Assembly: GCF_000196655.1 (NCBI RefSeq)
Contig: NC_014253.1
Location: forward strand, 124,001-188,000
DNA: 64,000 nucleotides
Source: Methanohalobium evestigatum Z-7303
GTDB lineage: Archaea > Halobacteriota > Methanosarcinia > Methanosarcinales > Methanosarcinaceae
Direction of reading: 5' to 3'
Translations under genes and position numbers: made by a program
Notes under the pieces: model-generated
Database searches by the model: none
What the model was told of the DNA's origin: nothing
What the model saw: only the letters and a program-made list of their open reading frames with translations
In this document: piece by piece, positions 19,175 to 36,839 of the stretch
How positions within the stretch are numbered: the stretch's first letter is position 1
Layout: each line of letters begins with the position of its first letter

Positions 19175-19251
19175 TGTTTGTCACTCCTTTTTCAGTTATA
19201 ATAATGAATTTCTTTACAAGGAATCATCCTTGCAAAGTATAATTCTCAGTT

Positions 19252-19497: not shown

Positions 19498-19781
19498 CGT
19501 TGTTTGTTTGTTTTTTATTTCTACGTGATAATCATCTACAAAAACTAAAAACTTGTTTTAATTACATCTTGTGAATTTGTAAAATCAAGGTGTTAGTTTT
19601 TGTAGCTAAAAAATCAGACAACTCTCATAATTTATATAATTTTTGGAGGATTCGATATAAACGTGGTATTGGAATTTGGTATAATTCTCAATATAAACTA
19701 TATACTTGAGTTTCATGTATAATAAAAAATTAAGTTACAAGTCCTATAGATTAGTCGTAAAATCTATTAAAATGAAGTAAT

Positions 19782-20612
19782 ATGTTAACCTATATGACAG
19801 ATATAGGTTCTGATATACCTGAAGCTCCTTTAGGTAGAAATCCTACGTTGAGAAAAGAGGCTTTAAAGTATTATGTAGAAAAAAATGATATAATAGCAAA
19901 TAACGATTTGCTTAAACACTTAAATTCTAAAAATATAAGTACTGATTATAAAAACCTACACAAGTTACATTTAAAAAAGATGCAATATCTTTTGGAAGGA
20001 CCATTGCCTGCAGGTATCAGTGATAGTGGAAGAGCAGTGGTGGGCTATAAATTGAAAAAAAATCTAACCACATTAAGATTCCTACTGACATATGTTTATG
20101 ATGAATCCAATTACTATATGTTAATGAATTCAGATTTTTATCATGAAATGATACCACAGGTGATAGAACATTTAGATAAAAAATTAGTTGAAATGGAGGA
20201 TACTGGAGTATATGAACATGAGGTAAATATTTTGGAAAAGCAATTAAAATATACAGTACTAGGATTGAACTTTATTTTATCTTCAACTGACAATTATATA
20301 AAGTGTTTAAGACAATTTGATGAAGACCTAGAATATGACCTTTCATAGTTCGATAATTGCCTAGTAGCGGGATACCAAATTGGGTCAGGTAAAAAATTGA
20401 TTTTAGGGCAATATGATGATGAGTACATAGGAAATATGAGAATCAAGTTGAGAGAATATATCTCTAATAATAAAATAATTTATTTAATGTATAGGTTTAT
20501 GAACATAGATGCTTATTCAGGATATATTTATTCAGATGATTATAAAAGCGATAATGAAACAATTAAAGAGCAACTATTAGAACCGTTTGAAATGATGACA
20601 AATATGAAATAA
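19782..20612 (+). CDS. Unknown island protein with an in-frame TAG codon (possible pyrrolysine readthrough)
   Basis: Codons 1-188 are open from ATG 19782. Codon 189 is TAG (20346-20348), and the same frame then stays open for 87 more codons to TAA (20610-20612), giving 276 residues if read through. The first part looks like a winged-helix region (about 15-80, RKEALKYYVEKNDIIANNDLL), then a helical domain. The residues after the TAG (FDNCLVAGYQIGSGKK, LREYISNNKIIYLMYRF) have normal protein character. No other convincing gene in the window stops at TAG. If TAG is simply a stop, the product is 188 aa followed by a remnant. Function unknown. Confidence 0.5.
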
Positions 20613-20913
20613 ATTTTACCTGGATATAATATGATAATTCACTGTATGTTAAGGGTATAAAAAATGTTACAGGACCATTGGACGAAATAGATAATTCATA
20701 GAACTTACTTAATAATCAAGTTATTTGGGAGAATTCTTAAGAGGAATCAAATCTGCAGGGGGCGTTTTCCCAACTCCTAACCCCTACAATCTAAATATCT
20801 TTAAAGTTTCTATAAAGATTAATACATTTTTAGGATGTATTAGATTATACTGGTGAATCCTGTTATTTTAATCTGGATGATATTGATTTAATAGGATATC
20901 TACAGTACCAAGA
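20613..20913. other. Gene-free stretch with a short coding-like remnant
   Basis: No complete gene. One plus-strand frame (about 20627-20740) reads like protein (YVKGIKNVTGPLDEIDNS, then a TAG at 20699-20701, then NLLNNQVIWENS and a stop) but has no start codon and is in a different frame from the preceding gene, so it is probably a broken continuation. The rest is AT-rich apart from a short GC-rich patch at 20754-20786. Confidence 0.4.
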
Positions 20914-23900
20914 TTAGCTTATTTTAAAGCTAAACTCCTTCATAAATGGGAAATTAATACTTGCTTTTAACACTGTAAGGTTTACACCATTTCTGCTGCC
21001 AAAATCCAGATCAAATGATTTTTCTTTCCCATATTTCCTACAAAAATCAACCAGATTCAACATATGATGGAGGCCATTAGATGCATCTTCATTCTGTAAA
21101 AGTTCTACTGATGGTTCAAGTAATGGACGGGGTAAAAACAATACACATTTGGATTTTGCTCTTGTAACAGATACATTCAATCTATTCAAACTGTAAATAA
21201 ACTCAGCTTCGTTTAGTGCAGTTTCAACATCGCTTACACCATAGCTTACAATAACTGCCTGTGTCTCCTGACCCTGCATTTTGTCAACAGTATCTACAAA
21301 TGGATAATGGCTCCAGCTCCTTAAAGAATCCAGATGATTATGTATAGTCTTTATCTGGGAATGATGGGGACTCACAATAAAAAGTCCATCTTTCCAAAAT
21401 TTCCTGTCTCCTTCTTCATTATTCGGATAATATCTCCAATCTTCAGATAACAGGTTATTACGAAGCAAAACCGATAACCTTGCTACGATTTCTGCTTCAA
21501 TCTCGTTTTCAACAGATGCCTGAACATTCTCTAAAATACAAACGGTTAAAGGATACTCTGAATCAACTATAGATTCTAGCAATTTCTCATAAGAATCAGG
21601 TAAACCATTAGCTTGTAAAGGTGTTCCCAATTCCAGTTTCTGTAAACCTATATTATCTGTTGCAGGAATATAATCTAATCCGTACAGAGTCTCTGCAGAA
21701 AATCTAGATAACGTTTTGTTCATACGCCAGTTTTCAAGAAGTTGTTGTGTATATGGATTATTTTCATTATCCCTGCGACGCAGATATGAAAAAATAGAGT
21801 CATGTAAACTTGGCAATCCTTCATCAGATTCTGGATAATCAACATTGATTATAGGCGGAAGTTGCAGATCATCACCTGCAAGGACCAACCTTTTTCCGTA
21901 ATCAATTATAGACATCCCAAGCGCTATTTCAGCAGGTTTGACCTGGGATGCTTCATCAACAATAAGCATATCTATGGTTGGTATTTTCCTACCAACTTTA
22001 TCCAGACTATTAACAGTGCCCCCGACTACTAAATGTTGGAAGTTTAATAAATCGTCCACTTCATATTCTTGACACACTTGTAGTGATTCTTTACTAGGAG
22101 CAGTTTTTGCGGATTTTAATTTATAAACGGGTAAATTATCGAAATCATAATCTTTCGAAATTTCCTGGATTTTTAGAAGAAGATTTTCGATAGCAGCGTG
22201 TGTAGATGCAGTGATTGCTATATGGAATCTATAACCATTATTTTTCCACGTTTTCAAGATGTTAAGAACAGATTTTGCAAGGAAATAGGTTTTACCAGTA
22301 CCAGGTGGACCCCAAACAAGAGTTAAACGGTTTTTAACCATATGCTCAAAAGCTTTCATCTGACTAGATGTAAATCCAGATGAATCACTCAAACAAAGAG
22401 CTTCGTTTAATAGATTGTCAGCTTCATACATTGGTTTGTTAAACGTTTGTGGTGTCCTTATAAGTTCCAGAAATCCGCTATCATCCTGTTCATCCAGTTC
22501 ACTTAATTTTCTCATAATCCGTCTGGATGTAAAATCTGTAAACCTTGGGTGAAGAACTGCTTTATCTCCAGTATTGAAATGTTCCTGGTTTTTATTATAT
22601 TTGACATCCAGATATAACAATTTCAATTTCCCATCTTTGGGGTCCACTTTCTTTTCATCTATGATTGCAAAGTTTACACCTGTATTTCTAGAATCGTTTA
22701 TCTCAGAACGGAAAGTGTAATCATCGAATGATATCTGCGCTTTTTCTCCCTCTTCATTATCAGGCACCAAAATATGACTGAACTCTTCATTTTTCTCAAA
22801 AAGAGTATAATCGATAGGTTTTGTAACTCTCCAAATGTTTAAACCCATACACTCGACAGGTACACTGATGCCTTCTCTGATTCGTTCTGGTTTAGGAAGA
22901 GATCGTTTTTCGCGGATATCCATAGCAGTCATATAAGATTCATATCGAGTTATAAATGACAGCTGTGAAAGTTCCTTATTTTCAAAATAGTAAGAATCCG
23001 GTATCTTGAATTTCTGAGACCATGTAATCAATTTATCCTTTGCAATATAACGCAAACCTTCCAATACACTACTCGTTGCAAGTAGCCTTTTCGAAAGTTC
23101 GTTCTTTATCCAGTCTACAGCTTCAGGTCTAGTTCCATCCCATACCATTGTGATAGTATCGGATTTCATGACATTACTCTGTTCGAACCAGAATAGGTCA
23201 CTAGGTTCAAAATCATAATTAAAATCAGGACTCTGGAGAACCTTAGATATCTCTGGTAATCTTAATGAAAATGGAACTGGTAAACTTACGAGCTGGTCTA
23301 TCTCATTTGTTAGAATTACTATTGGGTGTTTTATTTCTGTAGGTGGGTGTTCTACTTGTCCTGCTAAGTTTGTATTCTGGAAATAGAAAAGTAACCTGAG
23401 GGCTATAGGTGCCATTTCGGATTCTTTGGTAAATTCATTAAGGAGGTCATAGAATAATTGGAGTTCATAACTGTCAAAAACATAAGTCTGAAGCGATTTT
23501 TGTTCAGTCCATTCTCTTTCACGGTTATAATCGTGCAAAGTTTTTAGTTCATCATATAAATCAATTAGAAACTTTTTCTGGATTTCAGTACATTCATCTG
23601 GATAACTGGCGATGTAGATTTTTTCATTTGATGTATTTTCATATACCTGTTTTCCTTTAAACCTTCTATACCCTATTGAATATATCCTGGATGAAACTGG
23701 GTCATTTTGTATCGTGATGAATAATGCTACACTTTCATTAATCGGTAGATTCAATGAAACTCTGCCTGTAAGGACCGGCTCATTATTTTTTAAAGCTTGA
23801 GTGGTAGTTAATAACTTGTGTTTCTGATTTCTAAGGGACCCACAATCTTCCAGGTAGTTTTCAGCATCATCATTTTTTAAAAACGATTCTAATTCAGATA

Positions 23901-24747
23901 GTGAATTTACAGATAACCTGTCATTACATAGGTACTTTTTACCGTTTGAAGATAAATAAGGAATCATTGATACTGATTCATTCTTCTCTGCTTCTGATTT
24001 GCAGTGTCTATAGAATTCACATAATTCACATCTATGATATAAATGCCAGGATAATTTATCAATAGGTGATTCTAGGATAACAGGTAAATGGTTCCGAAGA
24101 AAATCTTCCACCATCTTAATATCGAAATGCAGGTCAAATAATTCAGGTTCATCTTGTTCATAAAGCCAGATGCCTGCTTGTTTTAGATCTACTTCAATGT
24201 CATAACCCTGTTCTTTCAAGGATTCTTGCAGCATCAATGAATATAGCGCTGTTTGGACTCGGTGGCTAGGTGTTATATCTTCGCTGGCTTTTATATCTAT
24301 TATTTGCAGCACATATTTTCCATTATTTTCTACAAGCCTTATTAAATCAGGCCTACATGGTGGGAATCTGCATAGATCTGATGAGAGGTTATATTTTTTT
24401 AAAAACTGTTCAGGAACGTGTATTGTAGGTTGGTATATATTGTGACCTGACTTTATATCCTTGATAATTTTTAAGGTTTCATCAAATGTGTGAGCTCTTT
24501 CATTTAATGCACCTTCACCATCAGGGACTATAACATTATCTACTAATTTTTCAGTAATTACTTCTTCTTCCCATTCAATGCCTGCTTTTAATAAAACTCT
24601 CATTATAGGGTTTTGATCCTGTTCTATTTTAGGAATGCCTTCATTATTCCTTTCATCTAAAGGTGTAGCATGATACCGGAGATAACGTTCACAATCATGG
24701 TAGAAATATCGTGCAATTAAAGAGGGATTCAGGTTGGATTTAGTCAT
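20914..24747 (-). CDS. Cas4/RecB-like nuclease fused to SF1 helicase (Dna2/UPF1-like)
   Basis: About 1277 residues from ATG 24747 (a TTG two codons upstream is less likely). The N-terminal third is a PD-(D/E)xK nuclease of the Cas4/RecB type with an Fe-S-like cysteine set: DCERYL near residue 18, and CELC plus a further Cys near 240-255. The C-terminal third is a superfamily 1 helicase: Walker A GPPGTGKT (about 813-820), IVDEASQ (about 930), GDDLQLPP, and late motifs VDKMQGQE and VSVTRAKSK. This is the layout of Dna2-like nuclease-helicases and of the TM0106-type RecB nuclease family. It is the first large gene in the island, convergent with the 19.8-20.6 kb gene and divergent from the 25-31 kb cluster. 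Confidence 0.85.
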   Translation of the reverse strand: MTKSNLNPSLIARYFYHDCERYLRYHATPLDERNNEGIPKIEQDQNPIMRVLLKAGIEWEEEVITEKLVDNVIVPDGEGALNERAHTFDETLKIIKDIKSGHNIYQPTIHVPEQFLKKYNLSSDLCRFPPCRPDLIRLVENNGKYVLQIIDIKASEDITPSHRVQTALYSLMLQESLKEQGYDIEVDLKQAGIWLYEQDEPELFDLHFDIKMVEDFLRNHLPVILESPIDKLSWHLYHRCELCEFYRHCKSEAEKNESVSMIPYLSSNGKKYLCNDRLSVNSLSELESFLKNDDAENYLEDCGSLRNQKHKLLTTTQALKNNEPVLTGRVSLNLPINESVALFITIQNDPVSSRIYSIGYRRFKGKQVYENTSNEKIYIASYPDECTEIQKKFLIDLYDELKTLHDYNREREWTEQKSLQTYVFDSYELQLFYDLLNEFTKESEMAPIALRLLFYFQNTNLAGQVEHPPTEIKHPIVILTNEIDQLVSLPVPFSLRLPEISKVLQSPDFNYDFEPSDLFWFEQSNVMKSDTITMVWDGTRPEAVDWIKNELSKRLLATSSVLEGLRYIAKDKLITWSQKFKIPDSYYFENKELSQLSFITRYESYMTAMDIREKRSLPKPERIREGISVPVECMGLNIWRVTKPIDYTLFEKNEEFSHILVPDNEEGEKAQISFDDYTFRSEINDSRNTGVNFAIIDEKKVDPKDGKLKLLYLDVKYNKNQEHFNTGDKAVLHPRFTDFTSRRIMRKLSELDEQDDSGFLELIRTPQTFNKPMYEADNLLNEALCLSDSSGFTSSQMKAFEHMVKNRLTLVWGPPGTGKTYFLAKSVLNILKTWKNNGYRFHIAITASTHAAIENLLLKIQEISKDYDFDNLPVYKLKSAKTAPSKESLQVCQEYEVDDLLNFQHLVVGGTVNSLDKVGRKIPTIDMLIVDEASQVKPAEIALGMSIIDYGKRLVLAGDDLQLPPIINVDYPESDEGLPSLHDSIFSYLRRRDNENNPYTQQLLENWRMNKTLSRFSAETLYGLDYIPATDNIGLQKLELGTPLQANGLPDSYEKLLESIVDSEYPLTVCILENVQASVENEIEAEIVARLSVLLRNNLLSEDWRYYPNNEEGDRKFWKDGLFIVSPHHSQIKTIHNHLDSLRSWSHYPFVDTVDKMQGQETQAVIVSYGVSDVETALNEAEFIYSLNRLNVSVTRAKSKCVLFLPRPLLEPSVELLQNEDASNGLHHMLNLVDFCRKYGKEKSFDLDFGSRNGVNLTVLKASINFPFMKEFSFKIS

Positions 24748-24883
24748 GGTCAATTTTTGATTAGGATTGATTATTTAATAATATTCGCTTCATAAGATTG
24801 AACTTAAATTAGGTGATATATTTTGCTTCTTTTTGGTTAAAAACTATGTACATCACACCGACTAACTAACTATAACAATGCAA

Positions 24884-24898
24884 AATTATATATATTAA
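24884..24898 (+). promoter_or_regulatory. TATA-box promoter of the 25-31 kb cluster
   Basis: AATTATATATATTAA, a near-consensus archaeal TATA element, lies about 80 bases upstream of the first gene of the cluster (ATG 24977) and faces it. AACAGGAGT just before that ATG is a good ribosome-binding site. Confidence 0.55.
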
Positions 24899-24976
24899 TT
24901 TGTACCATGTCTCTATTACTAACAACTAGTGTTTTTTAGTTATAAGTCATGTTACATATGAACAGGAGTAAAGAAT

Positions 24977-25837
24977 ATGCAACAATGTATAAAATGTGGT
25001 TATAAAAAAAGAGGTTCGGAATCTAATTATATATGTGAAGATTGCCAAAAATTTTCAGAAATATTTGATAAGTTATGGAATGAAGTAAATTATATTTTTA
25101 ACAATTTAGAAATCATTAACCCTGAAACTGATAAAGTATTAAAATTTTTATCAGACACTGCTTTTGTAACAAAGGATAACCCCCAAACTCGTATTTATTA
25201 TAAAATATCATCTTTGATTATTAATAAAGCTTGGAATCGTGAAGATACTATAAATGAAGTTGAGGTTAACAAATACACAAATACTACTAAAAATTTATTA
25301 GAAGCGCTGAAAGTATTTGAGGAACTTGGAATTGTAAAAATAGAATATTCGGGTTATGAAAGAATATTGAAAATACAAAATAAAGCATTTAAAGTAGCTA
25401 ATGCTTGGAGATCAAGTGAAAGTTTAGATAATCAACTTATTGAGAGGGTTGCTCAAATCTTTGCAGGTTATGTTTTATTTTACATACTTCAGCTTATGAA
25501 TAATATAAGCGATGTTAGTGACTTAGATAATTTGCCTTACAACAAACGGCAACGAACACTTTGGGTCACCCTTATGTCTCTTTTATCAAAACCTTATGAT
25601 GGTGACGCAAAAATAAATGAAAACGATATATCGAAATATTTGAGAAAACGAGGAATCGCCTCTGGAACAGATTTAAAAATCAAACAATCCTTGCACAATA
25701 TGACTGAAAATCCTACAGGATTAATAAAAAACGTAAAAACTGATGATGATGGTTATAGGGTATATGAATATTCTGATTATGTTGTAAATGAATTTGAAAG
25801 AATAAGAAATGGAAGAACAAGACATAGAGTTGAATAA
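24977..25837 (+). CDS. Zinc-finger/winged-helix protein, first gene of the SMC-PAPS cluster
   Basis: 286 residues. The N-terminus has a four-cysteine zinc ribbon (C4, C7, C20, C23). The middle looks like a winged helix (about 75-130, TNTTKNLLEALKVFEELGIVKIEYSG), and another helix-turn-helix-like stretch follows at about 215-255 (ENDISKYLRKRGIASGTDLKIKQSLHNM). The family is not recognised. It is the promoter-proximal gene, with 2 bases to the next ATG, so it is co-translated with the AAA+ gene and may be its DNA- or RNA-binding partner or the operon's regulator. Confidence 0.65.
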   Translation: MQQCIKCGYKKRGSESNYICEDCQKFSEIFDKLWNEVNYIFNNLEIINPETDKVLKFLSDTAFVTKDNPQTRIYYKISSLIINKAWNREDTINEVEVNKYTNTTKNLLEALKVFEELGIVKIEYSGYERILKIQNKAFKVANAWRSSESLDNQLIERVAQIFAGYVLFYILQLMNNISDVSDLDNLPYNKRQRTLWVTLMSLLSKPYDGDAKINENDISKYLRKRGIASGTDLKIKQSLHNMTENPTGLIKNVKTDDDGYRVYEYSDYVVNEFERIRNGRTRHRVE

Positions 25838-25839
25838 AT

Positions 25840-26622
25840 ATGAATAACGATGATTCAGAAAATAAAATAACATTACAAACAAGTAAAGATATAAATGGCA
25901 TAGAATTGTTATCGCAATTAAAACCAACTAAAGAAAAAATAAGGAAAACTTGTAGTTATTTTTTTAAGGGAAAATATGAAGGCAATGATGTACCTTTTAG
26001 AGGTTTCATCTTATTAGGACCACCTGGAACAGGGAAAACTGAAGTAATTAGGCAAGTAGCTAAAGAAATTGATAAAAATTTACAAGTTCACAATATTATA
26101 ACTTATTTTGCATTAGTTGATGGTGCTAATATAGCTGCGCCAAAATGGGGAGATGCAGAAAAGAATTTAAAAGATGTATTTCAGAAAATAAATTATTTAA
26201 ATCAAGGAGAAGGAAATTCTAATAAAATAATATTATTATTTGATGACATTGAAAGCTTGGTTCTCAAAAGAGGTGCAGACCTTGCTAAAGAATGGCACTA
26301 TTCTATAAATTCTATACTATTTCATGAGTTAGATAAAATCAATCCTTCTAATGTAATTATGTGTGCTACTTCAAATAAACCTGAATTAGTAGATGATGCT
26401 ATACTTACTAGATTATATCCTATAGATGTACCTTCTTTGCCTATAGACCAATTAATAGTTAAAGTTGAAAATATTCTTAATAATTCAGGAGTAACAGGCG
26501 ATGATTTTGAACTCGTAAAATCTAATATTCAAAAAAGGTTAGAAACTTTGGAGAATCCTACAATAAGAGATGCACAGCATTTTACAATAGTTGAATGCAT
26601 AGAAAACGAGGTCTGGAAATGA
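25840..26622 (+). CDS. AAA+ ATPase of the SMC-PAPS cluster
   Basis: 260 residues, essentially a single AAA+ module of the FtsH/Cdc48/ClpX-like classical clade: Walker A GPPGTGKT (60-67), Walker B ILLFDD (131-136), sensor 1 in VIMCATSNKP, and an arginine in ILTRLYPIDVP. The Walker B ends in Asp-Asp instead of Asp-Glu. No separate N-terminal substrate domain is present, so targeting probably depends on its neighbours. Its stop overlaps the next start (ATGA), indicating translational coupling. Confidence 0.8.
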   Translation: MNNDDSENKITLQTSKDINGIELLSQLKPTKEKIRKTCSYFFKGKYEGNDVPFRGFILLGPPGTGKTEVIRQVAKEIDKNLQVHNIITYFALVDGANIAAPKWGDAEKNLKDVFQKINYLNQGEGNSNKIILLFDDIESLVLKRGADLAKEWHYSINSILFHELDKINPSNVIMCATSNKPELVDDAILTRLYPIDVPSLPIDQLIVKVENILNNSGVTGDDFELVKSNIQKRLETLENPTIRDAQHFTIVECIENEVWK

Positions 26623-27380
26623 AACATGTAGAAGATCTGCCACCGTTTGGAAATTTAGGTATATATGTATACTTTGAAAATTATACTAATAACCATCCCT
26701 ACAAAACTCAACAACTTTTAGATGGTACATATCCTGAATATAATGAACTAATAGATCTGATTAAATCTATCCTCAATAATGTTAATTTAGAATTGAAACC
26801 TAAAACATATAGCCTTTTAAGAACTATGATAGGTAACCGTGGACGTACTTTTGGTGCATCTCATACATATAAGTATAATTTGAACGACAATAGTGAATTA
26901 AAGCAAATTTTAAATTTGGTAAATGAATGGTTTCAAAATCAAAATCTATATTGGATTAGAGATTTTGATGTAGTATATTGTAAAAATGCACAAAAAAGGA
27001 TTGATGATTTACCATTATTTGGTTATTTAAAAGTAAGTATTTATTTTGATGGTTATGGCCAATATTATCAAAATGAAACTAGAAAGAAATTAATGGGAGT
27101 AGAAGGTGAATCACATAAAGTTAGAGGGTTAAGTGATTATGTTTATAATAAAACATCACCGAAAAATTATACATTGACACCTAAAACATTCAGCCTTTTA
27201 AGATACACTATTGGAAATAAAGGTCGTTCTTTTGGAGCAGCACATACATACAAATATTCAGTAAACAACTCTAAAGAGTTAGAAGAAATCATAAACAAAA
27301 TTAATGAATGGTTCAATAATACAGGTATTAATTGGTGGGATGATTTAGACATAGAGACATGTGAAACTATTAAATGGTGA
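26619..27380 (+). CDS. Protein of two tandem copies of an unknown ~120-aa domain
   Basis: 253 residues from the ATG overlapping the AAA+ stop (26619); an ATG at 26595 is upstream but inside the AAA+ gene. The protein is an internal duplication. Copy 1 (about 4-125) and copy 2 (about 128-250) both start with DLPxFGxL and share PKT[YF]SLLR, IGN[RK]GR[ST]FGA[SA]HTYKY and a closing NEWF...D[FL]D segment. Fold and function are not recognised. The conserved GRxFGAxH motif, with Arg and His, could be a nucleotide- or nucleic-acid-binding or catalytic site. The gene looks AT-rich like the rest of the cluster. Confidence 0.7.
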   Translation: MKHVEDLPPFGNLGIYVYFENYTNNHPYKTQQLLDGTYPEYNELIDLIKSILNNVNLELKPKTYSLLRTMIGNRGRTFGASHTYKYNLNDNSELKQILNLVNEWFQNQNLYWIRDFDVVYCKNAQKRIDDLPLFGYLKVSIYFDGYGQYYQNETRKKLMGVEGESHKVRGLSDYVYNKTSPKNYTLTPKTFSLLRYTIGNKGRSFGAAHTYKYSVNNSKELEEIINKINEWFNNTGINWWDDLDIETCETIKW

Positions 27381-27466
27381 TTATATTGAAACTTGATAAA
27401 AAAGAAATACGTAAAAAAATTGAAAATGAAAACACAGATAAAAAATCCATAAAAAAATTTTCTTGA
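27374..27466 (+). CDS. Possible 30-aa basic microprotein
   Basis: ATG 27374 overlaps the end of the duplicated-domain gene, and the frame runs 30 codons (MVIILKLDKKEIRKKIENEN...). It is very lysine-rich. A further gap of about 50 bases separates it from the SMC-type gene. Translational overlap favours reality, but the composition is what AT-rich filler also gives. Confidence 0.25.
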   Translation: MVIILKLDKKEIRKKIENENTDKKSIKKFS

Positions 27467-27514
27467 TAAGACTTTGGAATCAATAGCTTCTAATCATAAA
27501 TAAAGGTGAACTCT

Positions 27515-29419
27515 ATGATTTGTAATTTAGATTTAAAAGATGTAGGCGGTTTAAGAGGAGAAAACAATTTTTCATTTGAAAGTGGAAAAGCAAATAAAAT
27601 TTTAGGTTCAAATGCAGTTGGAAAAACATCGTTAATAAAGGGTATGGTTTCTGTTTTATCAATACCTCCAAGTGGTACATTTCTAAAATATGGTGATGAT
27701 GCCGAGCGGTTGGGTATAAAAGGCGATGAATTAAGTGTCCATGAGGGGTTTGTTAATATTTACTCGGATTCTGCACAAGTTAAACTTTCATATGATAGCA
27801 TCGAGGATACTTATACAGTTGAACCAGATGGTACTGTAATAGAGTCTCCAGATGGAAATGAGAAATTTTTGCTTACTGGAGTAGTTATGGATAACTCTCG
27901 TGTAGTTCAACAATTAAAGTATGGTGAAAATAGTCATTTTGGTTGGTTTATAAACCAATTATCGTTTGCTGACAATTATGAAGAATTATATAACCTTGCA
28001 CAGTCTTATATTAACGACATAACTTCTAAAAAAACATCTTTGAATAAAAGAAAATCAAAGGCAAAAGAATTAGCGTCTGAATTAGAAAAAGTAAAAAAGC
28101 AGAAAGAAGAAATTGATCAAGATCGGGAAGAGATTAGCAAGAAAGTAAATGATAATGATATAAGAGAAATTGTAGAAGAAAGAAAAAGTATATTCGAAAA
28201 AATACAAAATTTCCATAGAGATTTGAATGATATCTATAACAGAATAAATAACAAAAAAACTAAAATCCAGAAAAAGGAAGAAATTGTTAATGAATTAAAT
28301 GAAAATCTTTCTAACTTGAACAAAGAAATTGAAGGTTTAGATGTATCCAATTATAAGAAAAAATTTGATCAAAAAGTGAATGAAAACACTTCAAAAATAG
28401 AATCATTAAAAGAAGATAAAGCAGAAGTTAATGCCAGTATAAATCTATTTCAGTCTGCAAAATTAAAATTGAAAAACGAAAACAAAAGTGAAACAACATG
28501 TATTTTGTGTGAACAAGGAAATTTGAATATAAACGTAATAGATAAAACATTGGAATCACTTAACGATAAAAAACGTAATATTGAATCAGAAATTCAATCA
28601 TTAAATGAAGAAATTGCAATAATGAAAAACAAACTTAATAACTTAGAATCTGAAAAAAATAAAAAAGAACAAGAAATATTTCGATTGGAACATGAACTTG
28701 AGGATACTAAAAGTGATTTAAAAACTTTAAGAAACGAAGTAAAAAATGATGATGATTTAAAAAATGAAAAGGAACAAACTTTAAAAGAATTAGAAAATGA
28801 ATACGAAAGATTAAAAGAATTAGCTAAAGGAGATATAGTTAAAAAGATAGATGAACTTGAAGCAAAAAGTTCAGAATTACAAGAAGAAATAGGCAGTATA
28901 AATGAGAAAATAAGATCAACAACTGGTGAAGAAGTTATTTATGGTGAAAATGTCGATACTGATACTGCACTCGCTATTTATAATGATTGGTTATATTATT
29001 TGGAAGAGCTAAAAGAATTTGCTAATGAAATGTACAGTTCTCATAGAAACGAAGCACGTAAAAAATTTAATGAAAAAATCTCTGTTTTGATAGAAGATTT
29101 AGGGTTTGAAGGAATAAAATCTATTTGGCTAAATAATGAAGACAGATTAATGGTTGAAAGAGAAAATGAACAACCTCAACCCGTTGGATCTTTAGCTCTT
29201 TCTGAAAAATGTATGGTTGCTATTTTGTTACAACTAAGTATGAAAGAAGCCTATTTGCCTGACATACCATTTTTCGTTGTTGATGATATATTACAAGACT
29301 TTGACGATAATAAAAAGAAAAAAGTTATAAATTATCTCGGTAATGTTGCACAGGAGAAAAATATGTTCATAGTAATGTCTCTATTGGACGAAACTCAACC
29401 AGAAGTTGTAATAAACTAA
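27515..29419 (+). CDS. SMC-related ATPase with zinc-hook-like CxxC (archaea-specific SMC-related family)
   Basis: 634 residues from ATG 27515, preceded by AGGTGA; an in-frame GTG at 27506 is less likely. It has an N-terminal ATPase lobe with P-loop GSNAVGKT (about 31-38), a long coiled coil (about 165-500) folded at TCILCEQG (Cys329 and Cys332, Rad50-like hook), and a C-terminal lobe with the signature region LALSEKCMVAILL and Walker B FFVVDDILQDFD (about 585). The opening DLKDVGGL and the C-terminal layout resemble the archaea-specific SMC-related proteins of haloarchaea. DndD is an alternative comparison because of the PAPS-reductase-like gene downstream. Confidence 0.8.
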   Translation: MICNLDLKDVGGLRGENNFSFESGKANKILGSNAVGKTSLIKGMVSVLSIPPSGTFLKYGDDAERLGIKGDELSVHEGFVNIYSDSAQVKLSYDSIEDTYTVEPDGTVIESPDGNEKFLLTGVVMDNSRVVQQLKYGENSHFGWFINQLSFADNYEELYNLAQSYINDITSKKTSLNKRKSKAKELASELEKVKKQKEEIDQDREEISKKVNDNDIREIVEERKSIFEKIQNFHRDLNDIYNRINNKKTKIQKKEEIVNELNENLSNLNKEIEGLDVSNYKKKFDQKVNENTSKIESLKEDKAEVNASINLFQSAKLKLKNENKSETTCILCEQGNLNINVIDKTLESLNDKKRNIESEIQSLNEEIAIMKNKLNNLESEKNKKEQEIFRLEHELEDTKSDLKTLRNEVKNDDDLKNEKEQTLKELENEYERLKELAKGDIVKKIDELEAKSSELQEEIGSINEKIRSTTGEEVIYGENVDTDTALAIYNDWLYYLEELKEFANEMYSSHRNEARKKFNEKISVLIEDLGFEGIKSIWLNNEDRLMVERENEQPQPVGSLALSEKCMVAILLQLSMKEAYLPDIPFFVVDDILQDFDDNKKKKVINYLGNVAQEKNMFIVMSLLDETQPEVVIN

Positions 29420-29465
29420 AGTGAAGTTTAAAAAATGGGGACTATACACTATGGGGGATTAATAA

Positions 29466-30269
29466 ATGCCAAAATGTCAACTTTGTAACGGAACTATTAG
29501 CAACGGAAAATACCATGATATATGTGATTTAACAATATTCCAATTAGATGAAATTAAAAGTTTATACAGAAATGGTGGTGCACCTGATTGGCTAAGTGAA
29601 GCACTTGGTGAATTATCATGGATATATGAAAATAATACTAGAACATCTCCATATTTCAATGTTGCCTCTGAAATAGCAGAAATGTTTATAATAGGAGGTT
29701 ATGACAAATTAAACAGAGTAGAAATAAAAGAATTAGACCTTACTGTTTCAGCGGAAAGAGAGATATTAGAATTATTAAAAAAAGGTGAAATATTAGATTA
29801 TGATGATGTTAATATTTATTCCGGTGAAATGATTAATAAGTCAAAAAATATAGTTAATAAAGGAGAAAAATTATCCGATCAAGATTCAGAAGTTAGTAGG
29901 AAAGAAATGTATGGTTTTTTAGCTGTCTGTCTAACATCTTCCTTAATAGAATCAAGTACCTATGGTTTACCTAAAAAAGCTTTAGCAATTTTTTATTTAT
30001 TATCTGGACAAATGATATACTCTAATCAAGGTGATTTAAAAGTAAGTAATGAAGCTTTTAAATATGCATTTAAAGTATTAACTCCGACTCAAAGAAACCG
30101 TATAACTCGTATTTTGGCAGGTTTTCATCCAAGTGGTTCTTCAAGAATAATAGACAATATTGATATAAATGGTAATGTTTACTTAAAACCTAAGATGATT
30201 AACTATATTGATCGGATGCGAGAACTTTATAGATCAAGATCAAGGGATTCAAGAGATCGAGAATATTAA
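29466..30269 (+). CDS. Zinc-finger protein of unknown function between the SMC-related and PAPS-reductase-like genes
   Basis: 267 residues. The N-terminus CQLCNG...HDIC (C4, C7, H17, C20) is a probable zinc site, similar in placement to that of the first gene in the cluster. The rest is soluble and mostly helical (SWIYENN, KEMYGFLAVCLTSSLIESSTYGLPKKALAIFYLLSG). The C-terminus is rich in Arg-Ser-Asp. It starts 46 bases after the SMC-type gene and probably shares its transcript. No family recognised. Confidence 0.65.
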   Translation: MPKCQLCNGTISNGKYHDICDLTIFQLDEIKSLYRNGGAPDWLSEALGELSWIYENNTRTSPYFNVASEIAEMFIIGGYDKLNRVEIKELDLTVSAEREILELLKKGEILDYDDVNIYSGEMINKSKNIVNKGEKLSDQDSEVSRKEMYGFLAVCLTSSLIESSTYGLPKKALAIFYLLSGQMIYSNQGDLKVSNEAFKYAFKVLTPTQRNRITRILAGFHPSGSSRIIDNIDINGNVYLKPKMINYIDRMRELYRSRSRDSRDREY

Positions 30270-30290
30270 TTTTATAATTTTTTAACAAGG

Positions 30291-30325
30291 AAAATATATA
30301 AACCTTGAGACCCATACTTTGGGTC
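30291..30325 (+). promoter_or_regulatory. Promoter and palindrome immediately before the PAPS-reductase-like gene
   Basis: A TATA box AAATATATAAA (about 30292-30302) sits about 25-35 bases before the ATG at 30327, so transcription should begin at or next to the start codon (leaderless mRNA). A palindrome GACCCA (30309-30314)-TACTT-TGGGTC (30320-30325) fills the space between TATA box and ATG. It is well placed to be a repressor site over the transcription start. Confidence 0.5.
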
Positions 30326-30326
30326 C

Positions 30327-31460
30327 ATGGATTTATTATCTAAGGAAGTAGAAGCAATATCATTTTTATATCAACAATCTGAAAATAGAAAACTAGCGGT
30401 AAGCTTTTCTGGTGGAAAAGATAGTCTAGTAGTACTAGATTTATGTACAAGAGTAGGAATTGAAAAAGTTGTTTTTTCAGATACTACTATAGAATTCAAA
30501 GAAAACCTCAATTTTATAAAGACAGTGGAGAAAGTTTATGGTATAAAGATTGATGTTGTTAGTTCTAATAACGATTTTTTTGACGTTGTCGATAGAGTTG
30601 GTTTCCCATCAAGAAGGTTAAGATGGTGTTGTGACGTTTTTAAATTTGGTCCACTTGCTAAATATGCAATAGATAAAAACCTTGATGGATATGTTACTGG
30701 TTTAAGGAGAGCAGAAGCTAAAACCAGAGCAGATTACTTTGATGTAGATAATAATCAAATGGTTCCAATTTCACAAATTAACCCCATTTTAAATTGGGAG
30801 GAAGATGATGTTTGGGAATACATAAATGAGCATAATTTACCTATTAATCCATTGTACGAATATTTTGACAGAATAGGATGTTGGTGTTGTCCATTCCAAA
30901 GCATGACTGAATGGGATACTCTAGAAAAATATTTTCCTGAATTAATGGAAAAATTGGAGGCTAAATTAGATCAATTTGCTGACCAAATAGGGATTAAAGA
31001 CAAAGAACAATTTATAAAAGAAAAAAAATGGACAGGTTGGGCGACTGCCCAAAGTAAATCTCCTGCTGGTACAAGGAAACTTTGCGATTCTGGTGAAAAA
31101 AATACAATTGACTTAGGGTTTTTTGGAAACTCGGAAAAAGAAGTCAAAAAAATCTCTAAACTGCTTCCTATATTAACAGATGATTACTTTACAATAGGCA
31201 AATCATTAAGAATAACTGTAGATAAAAACAAAAAACAAAGAGTGAATACTCTTATTGAAAAATGTATGAACTGTGTAGGTTGTGGTGCATGTACTGCTTT
31301 ATGTCCACTCGGTGCATTATATGTTGAAAATGGTCTAATAACTGTAGATGAAAACCTATGTACAAAATGTGAAAAATGCCTTAGTACTAAAGTTTTAAGA
31401 GGTGCATGTATTGTAAGGAATTATGCGCCTAATAGAAAGACGATTACATCGTATCATTAA
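30327..31460 (+). CDS. PAPS reductase/ATP-PPi-loop protein fused to a two-[4Fe-4S] ferredoxin (DndC/CysH-like)
   Basis: 377 residues. The N-terminal PP-loop SGGKDS (28-33) activates a substrate with ATP; RRLRWCCDVFK (96-106) and GCWCCPF (184-190) supply the extra cysteines typical of archaeal CysH-type and DndC proteins. A bacterial-type ferredoxin domain follows (about 312-365) with CMNCVGCGACTALCP and CTKCEKC. In relatives this chemistry reduces sulfate or inserts sulfur into nucleic acid (DndC, TtcA-like). Here, with an SMC-type ATPase and a AAA+ protein, sulfur or nucleotide chemistry in defence is a fair inference, but no DndE, DndB or cysteine desulfurase is present. Confidence 0.8.
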   Translation: MDLLSKEVEAISFLYQQSENRKLAVSFSGGKDSLVVLDLCTRVGIEKVVFSDTTIEFKENLNFIKTVEKVYGIKIDVVSSNNDFFDVVDRVGFPSRRLRWCCDVFKFGPLAKYAIDKNLDGYVTGLRRAEAKTRADYFDVDNNQMVPISQINPILNWEEDDVWEYINEHNLPINPLYEYFDRIGCWCCPFQSMTEWDTLEKYFPELMEKLEAKLDQFADQIGIKDKEQFIKEKKWTGWATAQSKSPAGTRKLCDSGEKNTIDLGFFGNSEKEVKKISKLLPILTDDYFTIGKSLRITVDKNKKQRVNTLIEKCMNCVGCGACTALCPLGALYVENGLITVDENLCTKCEKCLSTKVLRGACIVRNYAPNRKTITSYH

Positions 31461-31867
31461 TTAATTATTTACGAACAATCAACAAACCCATTATCATCTA
31501 GGATAGAATTTTTTCATAACAAAAGCATTCCCCTATGTTAAATAGTTAGAATATAAAATCAACAGTTCTCTTTTTTGTTACACTATAAAAATCATATTCA
31601 AATCCAAGGAATACATAATGATTCTTTTTCTAAATGAGAACATATGATTTCATTCGCTTTTCAATTTCTTCTTTTGTTTCCTTATAAAGATTGCTTCAAA
31701 TTTCCAATTAATTGGTTTATTTCCAGAATATTATTGGGGAGTACTATTTAAAAATTAATATAAAAAATCTAGAGCGAGACTTTAACATATTTTAACCTAT
31801 GAAAATAATTGTTTAAAACAAAAGTACTTAATAGTTTGCTAACGTTTTTTTGATTGGGAGTGGTAAT
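31461..31867. other. Gene-free AT-rich stretch after the PAPS-reductase-like gene
   Basis: No complete gene. A minus-strand stretch near 31630-31690 reads KETKEEIEKRMKSYVLI but has no start and is stopped on both sides, so it is at most a remnant. No hairpin or repeat stands out. The end holds the start region of the next gene. Confidence 0.4.
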
Positions 31868-32710
31868 TTGACAGCTGGTATAGGCGAAATAGTACATGAA
31901 TCATTAAAGTTAGGTAGCAATGAATATTATAATTATTTAAAAAAAGCATCTAATAAAACTAATATAAATTATTGGCCAGAACCATCTGTTAACCGTTGGA
32001 CTTTGAAAATGGATATAGAAATGGCAAAGGCTATGTCAGAAGGGTACATAGACGATGGTGTAAATGTATTTCCTTGTATTATGAGCTCCCATTCAAATTC
32101 AATAGCTTTACAAAATGAATTTGAAAAATATCCTAAATTAATTACTTACAGTAATATAAATAATACTAATGAAAGGACTTATATTCCAGTTAATAATCCA
32201 AATGAATCTCGTCCATTAAGTAAAATAGGATTTAATATAAAAAAAGATATTATTTCTAAAATTAAATCAGGAATAATTCCATTTAAATATAAATATTTGG
32301 CCTCTCTTGTGTCTATATATCATATTAGAAACGATATTAAAGTCTGGGATGACATATGTAACAGTGGTTTATTTGATATTTGGAGTCCTACAGCACCATT
32401 TAGCAATATATATGGAAAAAAGGATCCAATTATACTATTAATTCGAGTATATGAATTAGAAAATGAATATCCACATAAACATATAGATTTCAAAGCATCA
32501 CCATATTTTGGAAAATTAATGGGGGATACAGTATTTGAAAACATTAAACCAGTAATAGATAATGATAATTTTTTAAATAAAACTAAAAAATTAGATACGA
32601 TCTTATTAAAAAATGATGCTTTACGATATAAAGAGATCTTTTTAAATGAAGAGGCAACGGAAGATTATGAAGAAGGATATTATGTTAAAAACTTACATGT
32701 AACAATATAA
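31868..32710 (+). CDS. Island protein resembling no recognised family
   Basis: 280 residues if started at TTG 31868, which has GGGAGTGG 5-12 bases upstream; TTG 31850 is the other in-frame option and there is no ATG nearby. It is soluble, with no membrane segment and no clear enzymatic motif. Notable stretches are YWPEPSVNRWTLKMDIEMAKAMSEGY (start) and SYMPCI-like VFPCIMSSHSNS. It sits alone between the PAPS-reductase-like gene and a decayed fragment. Codon choice is strongly AT-rich. Possibly a further member of the 25-31 kb cluster, but a 400-base gap separates them. Confidence 0.55.
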   Translation: MTAGIGEIVHESLKLGSNEYYNYLKKASNKTNINYWPEPSVNRWTLKMDIEMAKAMSEGYIDDGVNVFPCIMSSHSNSIALQNEFEKYPKLITYSNINNTNERTYIPVNNPNESRPLSKIGFNIKKDIISKIKSGIIPFKYKYLASLVSIYHIRNDIKVWDDICNSGLFDIWSPTAPFSNIYGKKDPIILLIRVYELENEYPHKHIDFKASPYFGKLMGDTVFENIKPVIDNDNFLNKTKKLDTILLKNDALRYKEIFLNEEATEDYEEGYYVKNLHVTI

Positions 32711-33055
32711 TATTTAAGAGAATTAGTTATAATTCGAAGTTAGTTAACGATTAAACTTTATAGTAATATCATTGATTGCATTCAATATCGTCCAATGGTA
32801 TAAATTTGAATTTTTCATTTAATATCTTATTTTGGAGTTTGATTAATTTGTCACAATCAGTATCATCCAGAATTAATCTTTAATGTTAATGATGAATATT
32901 AAATTAGCTGTATGATTCCGCTGTTAAACTATTTTTAATAATTCTAACTAATTTCGGCTTTGAACATAAAGCCGGACTGACTATAAATTCAGAAGGTTTA
33001 TGGTCAAAACCATTGATTTCAAAAAATTTAAAATATATGAAATTCTACACAAATT
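32711..33055. other. Gene-free stretch with a hairpin and a coding remnant
   Basis: Contains a minus-strand remnant (separate entry, 32769-32879) and a hairpin CGGCTTT-GAACAT-AAAGCCG at about 32955-32974 that may terminate transcripts. Otherwise AT-rich, leading into the inverted repeat at 33056. Confidence 0.4.
32769..32879 (-). pseudogene. Short C-terminal gene remnant
   Basis: A 36-codon open stretch without a start codon (preceded by an in-frame TAA) reads LILDDTDCDKLIKLQNKILN then a charged tail ending in ECNQ. The composition is protein-like, which suggests the broken end of a former gene. The family is not recognised. Confidence 0.3.
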
Positions 33056-33105
33056 ATGTAGGTAAAGTTTATATATAGACAATTAAATGTTAAGTTTACC
33101 TACAT
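33056..33105 (+). promoter_or_regulatory. TATA promoter framed by a perfect 11-bp inverted repeat
   Basis: ATGTAGGTAAA (33056-33066) and TTTACCTACAT (33095-33105) are perfect inverted copies. Between them lies the TATA box GTTTATATATAG (33067-33078), and 20 bases after the right arm is the ATG of a small LEA-like gene (33125). The right arm covers the expected transcription start, so a dimeric repressor bound at both arms, or a 5' mRNA hairpin, could control this gene. Confidence 0.6.
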
Positions 33106-33124
33106 AAAAAGGAGGATTTAAATA

Positions 33125-33256
33125 ATGAGTAAAAAAAATAATATGGATAAAAAAGCAGCATCTAGGATACAAAGCAACTTAGATAAAAAAGGTAAAGATC
33201 AAGAGGGTAAGAGAAGAACGCAATCTTCAGCTGATAGAAATGCAAAACAAAAGTGA
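33125..33256 (+). CDS. Small hydrophilic stress protein, seed-maturation (SMP/LEA)-like
   Basis: 43 residues, preceded by a strong ribosome-binding site (AAAGGAGG, 7 bases before the ATG). The product is very hydrophilic and Lys/Asn/Gln-rich, with the pattern KKAASRIQSN...KGK...QSSADRNA. This resembles the seed-maturation (SMP) repeat found in late-embryogenesis-abundant proteins and in many short archaeal and bacterial proteins (AAxRIQSAEAK...GS.AAxAQSAADRN). Such proteins are linked to desiccation or osmotic stress. The flanking inverted repeat suggests tight regulation. Confidence 0.65.
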   Translation: MSKKNNMDKKAASRIQSNLDKKGKDQEGKRRTQSSADRNAKQK

Positions 33257-33366
33257 AAATTAAAAATCATCTTTTTTTTATTTTATCAGGCTGGATGAAA
33301 GTAAATGAGAATAATATTTAGATTGCTATTAATTATATTTTAAGCTAATAAAGCTGGAGTTTGCTT

Positions 33367-34944
33367 ATGCATAACGATTACAGGTTAACAGCAAAAGAAT
33401 TACAGGTACTAAAACATTTTGTTCTTAACGAAAGCAATAATATTGATGATGTACATTTTGAATACAGAAGCTTTTATAGTTACCCAGGACGTATTGAAAA
33501 TGACATTAATTCTTGGTCAAACATTAAAGTATCCAGAGTTCATGCTAAAGAAATATGTGAAAAATTTATCGTTATGAACCTACTTGCTTTTGAAGATGTA
33601 TCTGAATCGAAAAGATACTATTTCCTAAAACCCGGGATTGAAACATTAAGAAATGTCATTCATCTATTCTACCGAAATTTGGATGATAAAGAATATTTTA
33701 CCCTTTTTAGACAAAGTTATATACAGAGCAAAATAAATGATAAACTTGTTATCTATGAGTTGAATAAAAGGGGCATAACATTTAGAAAAAAACTTGATAT
33801 CATCGATTGGCCAGAAGACGAAGCCAAAGAGCTACTGCAAAAAAATCCTGAATTAAGCTCAATTTCTTTTGAGAAATATATGCAAAAAAAACTTGGAGCA
33901 AAAGATAAATTTGGAAAACAACTGAAAGGCCCCCATGATATTAAGTTTGACATCAAATTTCCTGTTTTAGATATATCCAATAAAAACATGATACACAATA
34001 TTAATGACATAGAACATTTCAACAAAGATTTATTCAGTATTTATCCTGATTTAAAACAATATCCAAGTGCAATTTATAATCATTATCAGGCCAAACAAGA
34101 AAATTATCTTATACTGCCAATATTATTATTTATAAAAGTATCACACAATGCGTTAAAATATTTTTTATGTGATGAATGGCCATCAGATAAAACTGAATTT
34201 TTTTGGTACGCTGATGATTCACTAGATCATAAGTTTTTATTCTTTATGAATGATTTAATGGTTTTATCTTTTAAAGATATGGCATTTAACAAAGGATCAG
34301 CTGGGATGTTATTAATTAATAATGCATGTTTTAATGGAATTCTTACATTAATAAATGGAGAAGAGGAAAATAAATTATGTTTCTTTGAACTCCATAACGA
34401 CTTTCGGAAATATTATTTTGACAGCATACTTTACCAACCAGGAGGCCTTCGACCAATGGATATTGGTATAACTATTAATAATAAATTATACATCTATAAA
34501 ATTAATTCTATCATTGACAACTTTAAATTAAAAAGCAGTAATGTTTCTCATGCGAAAGACGAACTTTCTGATATGATATTGAATTACTTGAAAAATGACA
34601 ATAACCCTATTATCAAAACAATAAAAAGTTATTTGCCCAACCAATTAAACAATGCTATAAATTACTGTGATACCTCAAATATTTCAAGAACAGCAAAGAC
34701 AATGATTAAACGGGCAATTGAAAATGAATTGAGATGGGTTTTAATCAAAGAAGATTGGAACCATCTCTCTTATAATGATTTATCAGAGACCTCTATTAAA
34801 AAATTAAGTGATTATAGGTCAGTTTTAGAGGCAAACAAAGAACATATGGATTCTGGAATAGATACTGTTCCTTATAAATTAGATGCTGGTGGATCTATTT
34901 TTCATGATGTCTTTGGAGAGGATCACCCCTTTTTTGAAAATTAA
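33367..34944 (+). CDS. Large island protein of unknown function
   Basis: 525 residues from ATG 33367 (GGAG about 8 bases upstream; a TTG two codons earlier is less likely). No recognised domain. The N-terminal 120 residues look like a winged-helix region (LTAKELQVLKHFVLNE, HAKEICEKFIVMNLLAFEDV). The middle is mixed alpha/beta with many aromatic residues (FFWYADDSLDHKFLFFMNDL), and the C-terminal 120 residues are helical. It faces the convergent PLD-like gene with a 60-base gap, and its AT-rich composition matches the island. Confidence 0.6.
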   Translation: MHNDYRLTAKELQVLKHFVLNESNNIDDVHFEYRSFYSYPGRIENDINSWSNIKVSRVHAKEICEKFIVMNLLAFEDVSESKRYYFLKPGIETLRNVIHLFYRNLDDKEYFTLFRQSYIQSKINDKLVIYELNKRGITFRKKLDIIDWPEDEAKELLQKNPELSSISFEKYMQKKLGAKDKFGKQLKGPHDIKFDIKFPVLDISNKNMIHNINDIEHFNKDLFSIYPDLKQYPSAIYNHYQAKQENYLILPILLFIKVSHNALKYFLCDEWPSDKTEFFWYADDSLDHKFLFFMNDLMVLSFKDMAFNKGSAGMLLINNACFNGILTLINGEEENKLCFFELHNDFRKYYFDSILYQPGGLRPMDIGITINNKLYIYKINSIIDNFKLKSSNVSHAKDELSDMILNYLKNDNNPIIKTIKSYLPNQLNNAINYCDTSNISRTAKTMIKRAIENELRWVLIKEDWNHLSYNDLSETSIKKLSDYRSVLEANKEHMDSGIDTVPYKLDAGGSIFHDVFGEDHPFFEN

Positions 34945-35003
34945 TTTTTAATTAATAATGAAGTAGAGATAATAATTATATTCAAAGATTTGGTTTTAGT
35001 TAA

Positions 35004-36839
35004 TTATTTTTTCTTCTTTTTCTTTTTACCTGGTATAAGTTCGTCGTTTAAATAAACAATGGCTTGCAGCTCTTTTTGATCTTTAATATGTGCCATGTCC
35101 CAGCTACCCAGTGCTACAAAATCCGAATTGAAAATGAGGCGTGGATGCCACATCCTTTCTTTGTAAATCGGACATTTAGCTACCATTAATGATTTGTGAT
35201 TATCGAGGCGACTCACACCCTGTATACGTATTTCAGCCGACAGACTTGCAAGTTTCTTGATATCAAGATGTGATGTATAGATTTTTATCCCTTTTTGTCG
35301 TGCAGCTGATTTAATCAACCCATAATACGGCCATTTAGTGGTTTTGCCATGAAAGTTTGCAAGGATGCCCAGTCTATTCTTGAATAATGGTTTTATTTTC
35401 TTCCATTCATGTATGAATGATGATTGTTTTCCTTGGCCAAGATAATATATCATATTGTAAAACGTACTATGTATCATATCTTTCAGTGGATGATCTTCAA
35501 AATTGATTATGATGTAAGACTCCCTTTTATTACCCATGTAACTTGTCGTCGCCATTGAATGTATTATTAGATTTTCCGAATCAAGAACAGCTTTTGCATG
35601 ATTCCGGTCAGCGTAGATAACTTCACTACCATGTTCTTTGAAAATGTCTATAGTTTTATTATGCTGTTCGTCAGCTTTGTTATCAGCTACCAGAAGATCC
35701 GGGAACTCTCTGATATAATCTGTCATTGTTTGTCTACATTTACCCGTTAGGATAGCTGAAGATTTCATTGCATGTCTTCTCCATGTCATCCCAAAATAAT
35801 CCAGACCCACTGTAACCTTGATGTGTGGAGCTATTTCATAATTCTTCAAATTGTTAATATATACTGGTTCGTACATATATGAATACCAATTAGACAAATT
35901 TTTTTTCTTTCTTTTCTCACTGGTATTTTTCAATTGGGACAGCACCAAATTATGAGAATTTACGTCAATCTTAGGAAATTCTATAACTTCAGGCAGTTCA
36001 GCAGTATCACCATCATTGGTCCTTGTTAAATAATATGACCAGTTTTCAGTTTTCACATCACTACAAATTTCAGCTTCATGATAAGTAACATAAGCGAAAT
36101 GGTCTACCTTTTCTGAATAATATATTAGACCAGCGATGATTGCAGATACTCTTTTCATCATACCCATAGAAATGGCTGGACAATATAATGTCATGTTTTT
36201 ATTTACACATTCTTTCATTGCTTCAGCCAATCTTATCTCTATACCGATGCTGTTTTCGTGCATTTCGGTCAATACGAAACCATGTTTTCCATCAATAATC
36301 AAATCAAATGGATACGATCCAAGTTCAACATCATATCCTTTGTTTTTGTAATAGTTTTTCAGAAATTCGATATGCCTTACTGAAAATTCTCTTGACTCTG
36401 TATTGTTGTGGTAAAAACCCATTGACATTGTATCCGGGCTGGTAGCAAATGTGTTTCCATAATAGTATTTGCCAAGTGGATTTAAAAAATGTGGTGTGAT
36501 TTTATAAGTGGTTCCATCATGTTTCTTAAATGACATTTTAACGTAATTTATTATTCTAGCATTGATTAAATCAAGTCTTGCTCTCGAATATTGTTCAGTA
36601 GTGATTTTTTTACCTTTTTTCTTGCTTGCGATTCGAGCTACTACCGGCATATACGGTTCCGCTGGTATGAACTCTAGGATATCAAAATTGTCTTGATTTT
36701 TCATCAATTGTCGGGTAACACTCCCTATGTAATTCCAGGATTGTTTACTTTTTTTCTCATCACGTCGGTGAAAAGTTACATCCTCGAGCCATTCTGCATA
36801 TCTCTGGTTAGGACCTTTAGGTGGTTCATTCATATACAT
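35004..36839 (-). CDS. Phospholipase D-like protein with two HKD-type motifs
   Basis: 611 residues. Two HKD-like motifs sit in the C-terminal half: HAKAVLDSENLIIHS (His414, Lys416) and HPRLIFNSDFVALGSWD (His565, Arg567). The second has Arg in place of Lys but is otherwise a good match, including GS. This is the two-motif arrangement of PLD-superfamily nucleases and phosphodiesterases. Around residues 175-215 a segment FDLIIDGKHGFVLTEMHENS resembles a nuclease beta-hairpin, less certainly. The last seven residues are lysines, probably non-specific nucleic-acid contacts. The island context favours a defence nuclease; the substrate is unknown. Confidence 0.65.
   Translation of the reverse strand: MYMNEPPKGPNQRYAEWLEDVTFHRRDEKKSKQSWNYIGSVTRQLMKNQDNFDILEFIPAEPYMPVVARIASKKKGKKITTEQYSRARLDLINARIINYVKMSFKKHDGTTYKITPHFLNPLGKYYYGNTFATSPDTMSMGFYHNNTESREFSVRHIEFLKNYYKNKGYDVELGSYPFDLIIDGKHGFVLTEMHENSIGIEIRLAEAMKECVNKNMTLYCPAISMGMMKRVSAIIAGLIYYSEKVDHFAYVTYHEAEICSDVKTENWSYYLTRTNDGDTAELPEVIEFPKIDVNSHNLVLSQLKNTSEKRKKKNLSNWYSYMYEPVYINNLKNYEIAPHIKVTVGLDYFGMTWRRHAMKSSAILTGKCRQTMTDYIREFPDLLVADNKADEQHNKTIDIFKEHGSEVIYADRNHAKAVLDSENLIIHSMATTSYMGNKRESYIIINFEDHPLKDMIHSTFYNMIYYLGQGKQSSFIHEWKKIKPLFKNRLGILANFHGKTTKWPYYGLIKSAARQKGIKIYTSHLDIKKLASLSAEIRIQGVSRLDNHKSLMVAKCPIYKERMWHPRLIFNSDFVALGSWDMAHIKDQKELQAIVYLNDELIPGKKKKKKK

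Follow-up and report, generated by a model that had tools for sequence, protein, structure and literature searches.

What function would bring an SMC-like ATPase and a PP-loop sulfur enzyme together in one compact gene cluster of a methanogen? The cluster in question belongs to Methanohalobium evestigatum Z-7303 and lies in the 64,000-base window analyzed here (positions 124001-188000 of contig C1, NC_014253.1, which comprises 2,242,317 bases of the two-contig, 2,406,232-base genome). An initial annotation described it as five to seven genes on the same strand, the first three tightly coupled. Six open reading frames (ORFs), A to F, are indeed present on the forward strand and encode the gene types proposed there, and a small seventh gene, s, can be added in the gap between C and D (Table 1). 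The coupling is equally apparent, with a spacing of 2 bases between A and B and an overlap, ATGA, between B and the start of C; A itself is preceded by a TATA-like stretch and GGAG. We tentatively favor, at somewhat below an even chance, the interpretation that these genes form a mobile archaeal cassette combining an SMC-like, DNA-engaging complex with sulfur chemistry on nucleic acids, most likely DNA thio-modification that would serve self-marking or defense.

The same gene order, A-B-C-D-E(-F), is found in other phyla, so that the cluster is more than a chance assembly, and the possibility raised initially, that it is unique to one genome, can be dismissed. The alignment of B, scanned against 84,980 species, yields eight loci, two of which are Archaeoglobaceae contigs (L027 and L028) where A-B-C-D-E follow in the same order and F is adjacent but divergent. 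Hydrothermarchaeum profundi (L029) possesses A-B-C-D-E-F on one strand, like the window. In S2_100, a euryarchaeal metagenome-assembled genome (MAG), A-B-C-D run to the end of one contig (L030), and another contig (L043) starts with D-E-F. The Archaeoglobaceae arrangement also appears on a 12.5-kb contig of ‘Actinomycetota’ MAG-54 (L035), which may be misbinned, and Thermoplasmata PFL9 (L032) has A-B up to the contig end. F is present in every archaeal locus in which the cassette is not broken by a contig end. Among 393 Halobacteriota genomes, searches that score only the best candidates per genome identify two matches of protein E besides the window, namely L027 and L028 (E-value up to 0.01), and F and cassette-type D (both up to 1e-60) match the identical 3 of the 393 genomes; the probability that E, F and D coincide in this manner by chance is negligible. 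The distribution within families is patchy (E is detected in 2 of 59 Archaeoglobi genomes and 1 of 148 in the class Dehalococcoidia), which argues for an accessory role. No cassette was found in plasmids searched with A, C and E or in viral contigs scanned with B and D.

Table 1. Cassette genes and neighboring features, in window coordinates
Feature	Position	Strand	Basis
Gene A, zinc/predicted winged-helix protein	24977..25837	+	ORF; aligned relatives; hhalign against E
Gene B, AAA+ ATPase	25840..26622	+	PF00004, 5e-19; aligned relatives
Gene C, two-domain protein	26619..27380	+	internal duplication; alignment; AlphaFold2 model of the L029 orthologue
Gene s, predicted small helical protein, remnant or frameshifted	27374..27503	+	small ORFs at the same spot in six relatives
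Gene D, SMC-like ASRP	27506..29419, start more likely ATG 27515	+	NF045487 score; tree
Gene E, zinc/predicted winged-helix protein	29466..30269	+	aligned relatives; hhalign against A; AlphaFold2 model of the L029 orthologue
Gene F, PP-loop and ferredoxin protein	30327..31460	+	PAPS_reduct, 1.7e-40, and 4Fe-4S; tree
Tyrosine recombinase	18026-19174
Dna2-like SF1 helicase	20914-24753
Mrr nuclease	37780-38928
Type I restriction-modification system	42751-46290

The link to sulfur comes from F, a fusion of a PAPS-reductase/PP-loop domain with a C-terminal 2x[4Fe-4S] ferredoxin. All six F proteins retain the SGGKDS motif, the CC...CxxC cysteines and the ferredoxin, and all six lack the ECGLH tail. 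In the phylogenetic tree, the CysH group, including the two copies of the host genome itself, is split from F with support of 100/99. Hence the assignment of F as an assimilatory APS/PAPS reductase (CysH) was rejected, and the clustering with assimilatory sulfate reductases that the initial annotation considered potentially damaging to the idea of a system is not observed. The two host CysH copies (C1 835345 and 1456980) are nearly identical, with tree branches of 0.014 and 0.012. BREX-4 BrxP and some SspD proteins have the layout of F, a PP-loop domain followed by an extra region and a ferredoxin (PMC12839542). F itself matches the PADLOC profiles of BrxP (1.8e-53, 179.9 bits) and, only distantly, SspD (5e-21, 73.6 bits). 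Proteins of this layout are also encoded at L047, beside the BREX-4 genes pglZ and brxL, and at L048, beside genes for DUF4007 and a class-V aminotransferase. A union of F with BrxP and the SspD of Treponema is not shown, but the approximately unbiased test (p 0.057) does not firmly reject it either. The host genome encodes SufS- and IscS-like proteins, assigned from sequence motifs, and therefore a sulfur donor exists. The closest relative of F found outside the cassette (291 bits) is encoded on a Methanobacterium congolense plasmid (L046:7962-9107) that carries none of A-E.

Gene D encodes an archaea-specific SMC-related protein (ASRP) of the coalescin/Sph family. It scores 354.8 bits against NF045487, the profile for ASRPs (cut-off 300), and contains an N-terminal Walker A motif, GSNAVGKT, and a zinc hook, C332xxC335 (CILC), in agreement with the SMC-like ATPase with a CxxC hook reported initially, although the family as such has already been described (PMC9389158). 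The likely start codon of D sits behind GGTG. The score, the zinc hook and the Walker motifs are shared with coalescin ClsN and Sph1-4. Haloarchaeal ASRPs mostly adjoin RdfA and no consensus gene neighborhood has been reported across the family (PMC9389158), whereas the cassette D proteins, which form a clade (100/100) separate from both the ASRPs on plasmids and those linked to RdfA, are embedded in a fixed multi-gene cassette that reaches a bacterium. The bacterial locus, L033:9986-14143 on a 139-kb contig of Dehalococcoidia CSMAG_2721, has the arrangement B-C'-D-E', where E' is a remote, full-length relative of E and C' is equated with C by position only, because homology is not detectable. 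Only three bacterial ASRPs, all short and uncertain, had been noted before (PMC9389158). The contig of L033 is clearly bacterial, and the ASRP relative encoded there indicates that the family is not strictly archaeal despite its name.

Known ASRPs function in chromosome architecture and compartmentation or in cell shape (PMC9389158, PMC10869688), so that, with D assigned to this family by its profile score, the cassette might be a chromosome-architecture or stress module akin to coalescin or to the RdfA-Sph3 shape pair, with F employed in RNA thiolation or sulfur metabolism. We consider this the least probable of the interpretations weighed, because the cassette D clade is distinct from the RdfA-linked ASRPs, E shows no similarity to RdfA, and the patchy distribution suggests an accessory function. 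As a candidate RdfA homologue E was rejected (profile-profile hhalign probability 0.4%), and the cassette thus lacks the RdfA-Sph pair. On the second contig of the same genome (L001:1450-4125), the gene downstream of a second ASRP encodes a protein alignable with RdfA of haloarchaea (18% identity, with common cysteines), suggestive of an Sph-RdfA-like pair in a methanogen.

The two zinc proteins anticipated by the initial annotation, A and E, turn out to be paralogous along their entire length (hhalign 97.7%, E-value 2e-12). In the aligned relatives, both start with zinc-type cysteines (C4, C7, C20 and C23 in A of the window) and end with an arginine/glutamate-rich tail. The AlphaFold2 model of E from L029 (pLDDT 85.9) contains two winged-helix segments, and by homology the body of A is predicted to adopt a winged-helix fold as well. 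Structural neighbors of the E model are winged helices in general, and its matches to Nse1-Nse3-Nse4 (Z 6.0) and JetABC (Z 5.5) are no better than those to other winged helices. B, the small AAA+ ATPase, is confirmed as a single-domain protein, nearest to Cdc48/VCP in a PDB profile search, with the Walker A motif GPPGTGKT, the Walker B motif FDDIES and a family-specific motif, AKEWHYSIN, that is invariant in eight relatives; its identity to the relatives at the seven other loci is 38-53%. A close relative of B without the cassette occurs in an Archaeoglobi MAG (L031:4213-6192), where it is followed by an unknown gene of 380 amino acids, inside a hydrogenase gene cluster.

This combination of D, winged-helix partners and an AAA+ ATPase would also fit a Wadjet- or Lamassu-like immune complex that senses or extrudes foreign DNA, with F as an accessory or regulatory component. 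The Dehalococcoidia form, which has B, D and E' without F, and the defense genes near the cassette are compatible with such a complex, as are the similarity of the E winged helices to Nse1-Nse3-Nse4 and JetABC and the weak PADLOC matches of D to LmuB and JetC. However, the latter matches involve mostly coiled coil, the former are generic, a nuclease (JetD or LmuA) is not conserved, and F is retained in all unbroken archaeal loci, which makes this explanation rather unlikely. The resemblance to Wadjet (JetABCD) and to Smc5/6 with its Nse1/Nse3 subunits, an SMC-like ATPase with winged-helix partners, is structural only: D is about half as long and carries a zinc hook, neither a kleisin nor a JetD nuclease was identified, and the cassette has two paralogous, zinc-bearing winged-helix proteins. 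In PADLOC, the JetC match amounts to 21 bits, largely coiled coil, and there is no match to JetA, JetB or JetD.

C consists of two copies of a domain of about 125 amino acids, with halves that are 42% identical, exactly the duplication noted initially; in the relatives read, the domain is present only once. The model of the L029 orthologue (AlphaFold2, pLDDT 77.6) has a ferredoxin-like fold. Ribosomal proteins of this fold make up most of its best structural matches (Z 8.7, root-mean-square deviation 4.7 over 97 residues), and the structure comparison yields no fold finer than this generic, common topology. Like A and E, C shows no significant family in Pfam, NCBIfam, PADLOC or PHROGs. The gap of 110-146 bases between C and D contains, in six relatives, an ORF of 42-50 codons that begins at or just behind the stop codon of C and ends at the start of D, and we therefore place gene s here, encoding a conserved, predicted helical protein of about 45 amino acids with nothing above the cut-off in Pfam. 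In the window, the frame opens at ATG 27374 and is closed by a stop at 27466, whereas the 3' part that matches (LDKTLESIASNHK) is read in a different frame as far as 27503, downstream of an A7 run (27451-27457); this frameshift may reflect decay, sequencing error or slippage. An RNA gene in this gap was considered and rejected: there is no Rfam match over 17000-36000, the predicted folds are weak, and the small ORF accounts for the gap.

Comparison with the established systems that couple AAA+ or SMC-like ATPases to sulfur enzymes indicates that the cassette belongs to none of them. With BREX-4 and Ssp it shares the layout of F, AAA+ and DNA-binding partners and a sporadic distribution in islands, but it has no PglZ, BrxL, BrxC, DUF4007/SspB, SspC, SspE or linked desulfurase, its motor is an ASRP, and B is of the Cdc48 rather than the Cdc6/Orc type. 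Dnd (DndABCDE) and the archaeal PbeABCD likewise pair a zinc-hook coiled-coil ATPase (of the DndD/CxC type) with a PP-loop sulfur enzyme, but D is an ASRP and the cassette contains no DndB, DndE, PbeA or PbeB. F reaches only 29.3 bits against the DndC equivalog TIGR03183 (cut-off 290.4), the genome contains no match to it at E 1e-60, and neither A-F nor the downstream genes produce a PADLOC match to DndB, DndD or DndE at E 0.1. Accordingly, the comparison with Dnd made in the initial annotation stands as far as the lack of DndB and DndE is concerned, but the lack of a desulfurase in the cluster does not count against the idea: SufS- and IscS-like genes are present in the genome, and many Dnd systems are thought to rely on housekeeping desulfurases (PMC10853773). 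Thus, tested for the hallmarks of Dnd, Ssp, BREX-4, Wadjet and RdfA-Sph, the cassette does not qualify as any of them, and only D shows those of a family, the ASRPs. We group it with DNA systems that consist of an SMC-like protein and a sulfur enzyme, though the possibility that it is a kind of its own is a real one; no description of the gene combination was found in the open literature searched, a search that did not extend to most subscription papers and preprints.

The genomic context is that of an island. The cassette stretch is A+T-rich (GC content of 27-30%, against 35-37% at the ends of the window) and is flanked by the recombinase, nuclease and restriction-modification genes listed in Table 1. 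Defense genes recur near two other loci: L030 encodes a CD-NTase (7.5e-85), NucC (4.9e-96) and a NucS-like nuclease, and L035 a McrB-like AAA_5 protein. The CD-NTase and NucC form a CBASS-type pair (L030:3667-5201), a few kb upstream of the cassette. The gene divergent from A in the window encodes a Dna2-like helicase of the SF1 group that is very large, includes a Cas4/RecB-like segment and matches MkoA, DpdJ and PLuB-type helicases; it was rejected as a partner, given that the cassette has no comparable neighbor at the other loci read. Genes for integrases or resolvases occur near the cassette in the window and, as read from sequence, at L027 and L028, with ParA at L027 and an Orc1/Cdc6-like gene at L028, and haloarchaeal ASRPs are found on plasmids. 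The SMC-like/AAA+ complex could, then, be a maintenance or partition module by which an integrative element segregates or protects itself. This appears improbable: the scans of viral contigs and plasmids revealed no cassette, the L033 copy lies between dnaA/obgE-type housekeeping genes, and the sulfur enzyme would be left unexplained.

Returning to DNA thio-modification, a mechanism can be envisaged in which a pair of D subunits, linked through the zinc hook, would constitute an ATP-driven clamp, loaded on DNA by A and E (perhaps as a heterodimer in place of KITE subunits) together with s. B, as a Cdc48-type remodeler, would reset or load the complex together with C. F would adenylate its substrate via the PP-loop and then pass sulfur to DNA, with host SufS/IscS as the putative source and reduction through its ferredoxin domain. 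In the boldest version, a new kind of SMC-based system, the ASRP clamp, the A/E loaders, the remodeler, C and s would direct F, as a redox-coupled enzyme, to sulfurate DNA, or else trap foreign DNA, by a route unlike those of Dnd, Ssp and BREX-4 that would have spread across archaeal phyla and into Chloroflexota; this version is possible but less likely than not.

Several observations weigh against DNA thio-modification. The tree places F neither with BrxP or SspD nor firmly with any other sister, F being one side of a branch with only 81/40 support, and the same genome encodes two ferredoxin-fused PP-loop proteins of the PRK13795 type that share the layout of F and have no known link to defense. 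Elsewhere, ASRPs are linked either to the architecture of chromosomes or to the shape of cells (PMC9389158, PMC10869688). The cassette contains no conserved effector of restriction, such as a nuclease, and s is frameshifted in the window. At L033, B, C', D and E' are present with neither A nor F within about 32 kb, in the midst of dnaA-, obgE-, gyrB- and nadD-like bacterial housekeeping genes (as read from sequence); F is therefore not essential to the core, and the sulfur step may be accessory. Thus, of the defense or DNA-modification function suggested by the initial annotation, the setting is borne out, with defense genes near three loci (the window, L030 and L035), but the function itself we infer, and the missing nuclease and the bacterial form without A and F count most heavily against it.

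What distinguishes this ASRP clade, in a family described as lacking consensus neighbors, is a fixed cassette that includes a sulfur enzyme, often resides in defense-rich islands and extends to a bacterium. If DNA modification is the actual function, sulfur marks would reach DNA by one more independent route, targeted by an SMC-like clamp; if not, the cassette would still be a new SMC-AAA+ machine. Either way, the genes are defined and the host is probably in culture, so that the system is open to direct testing.

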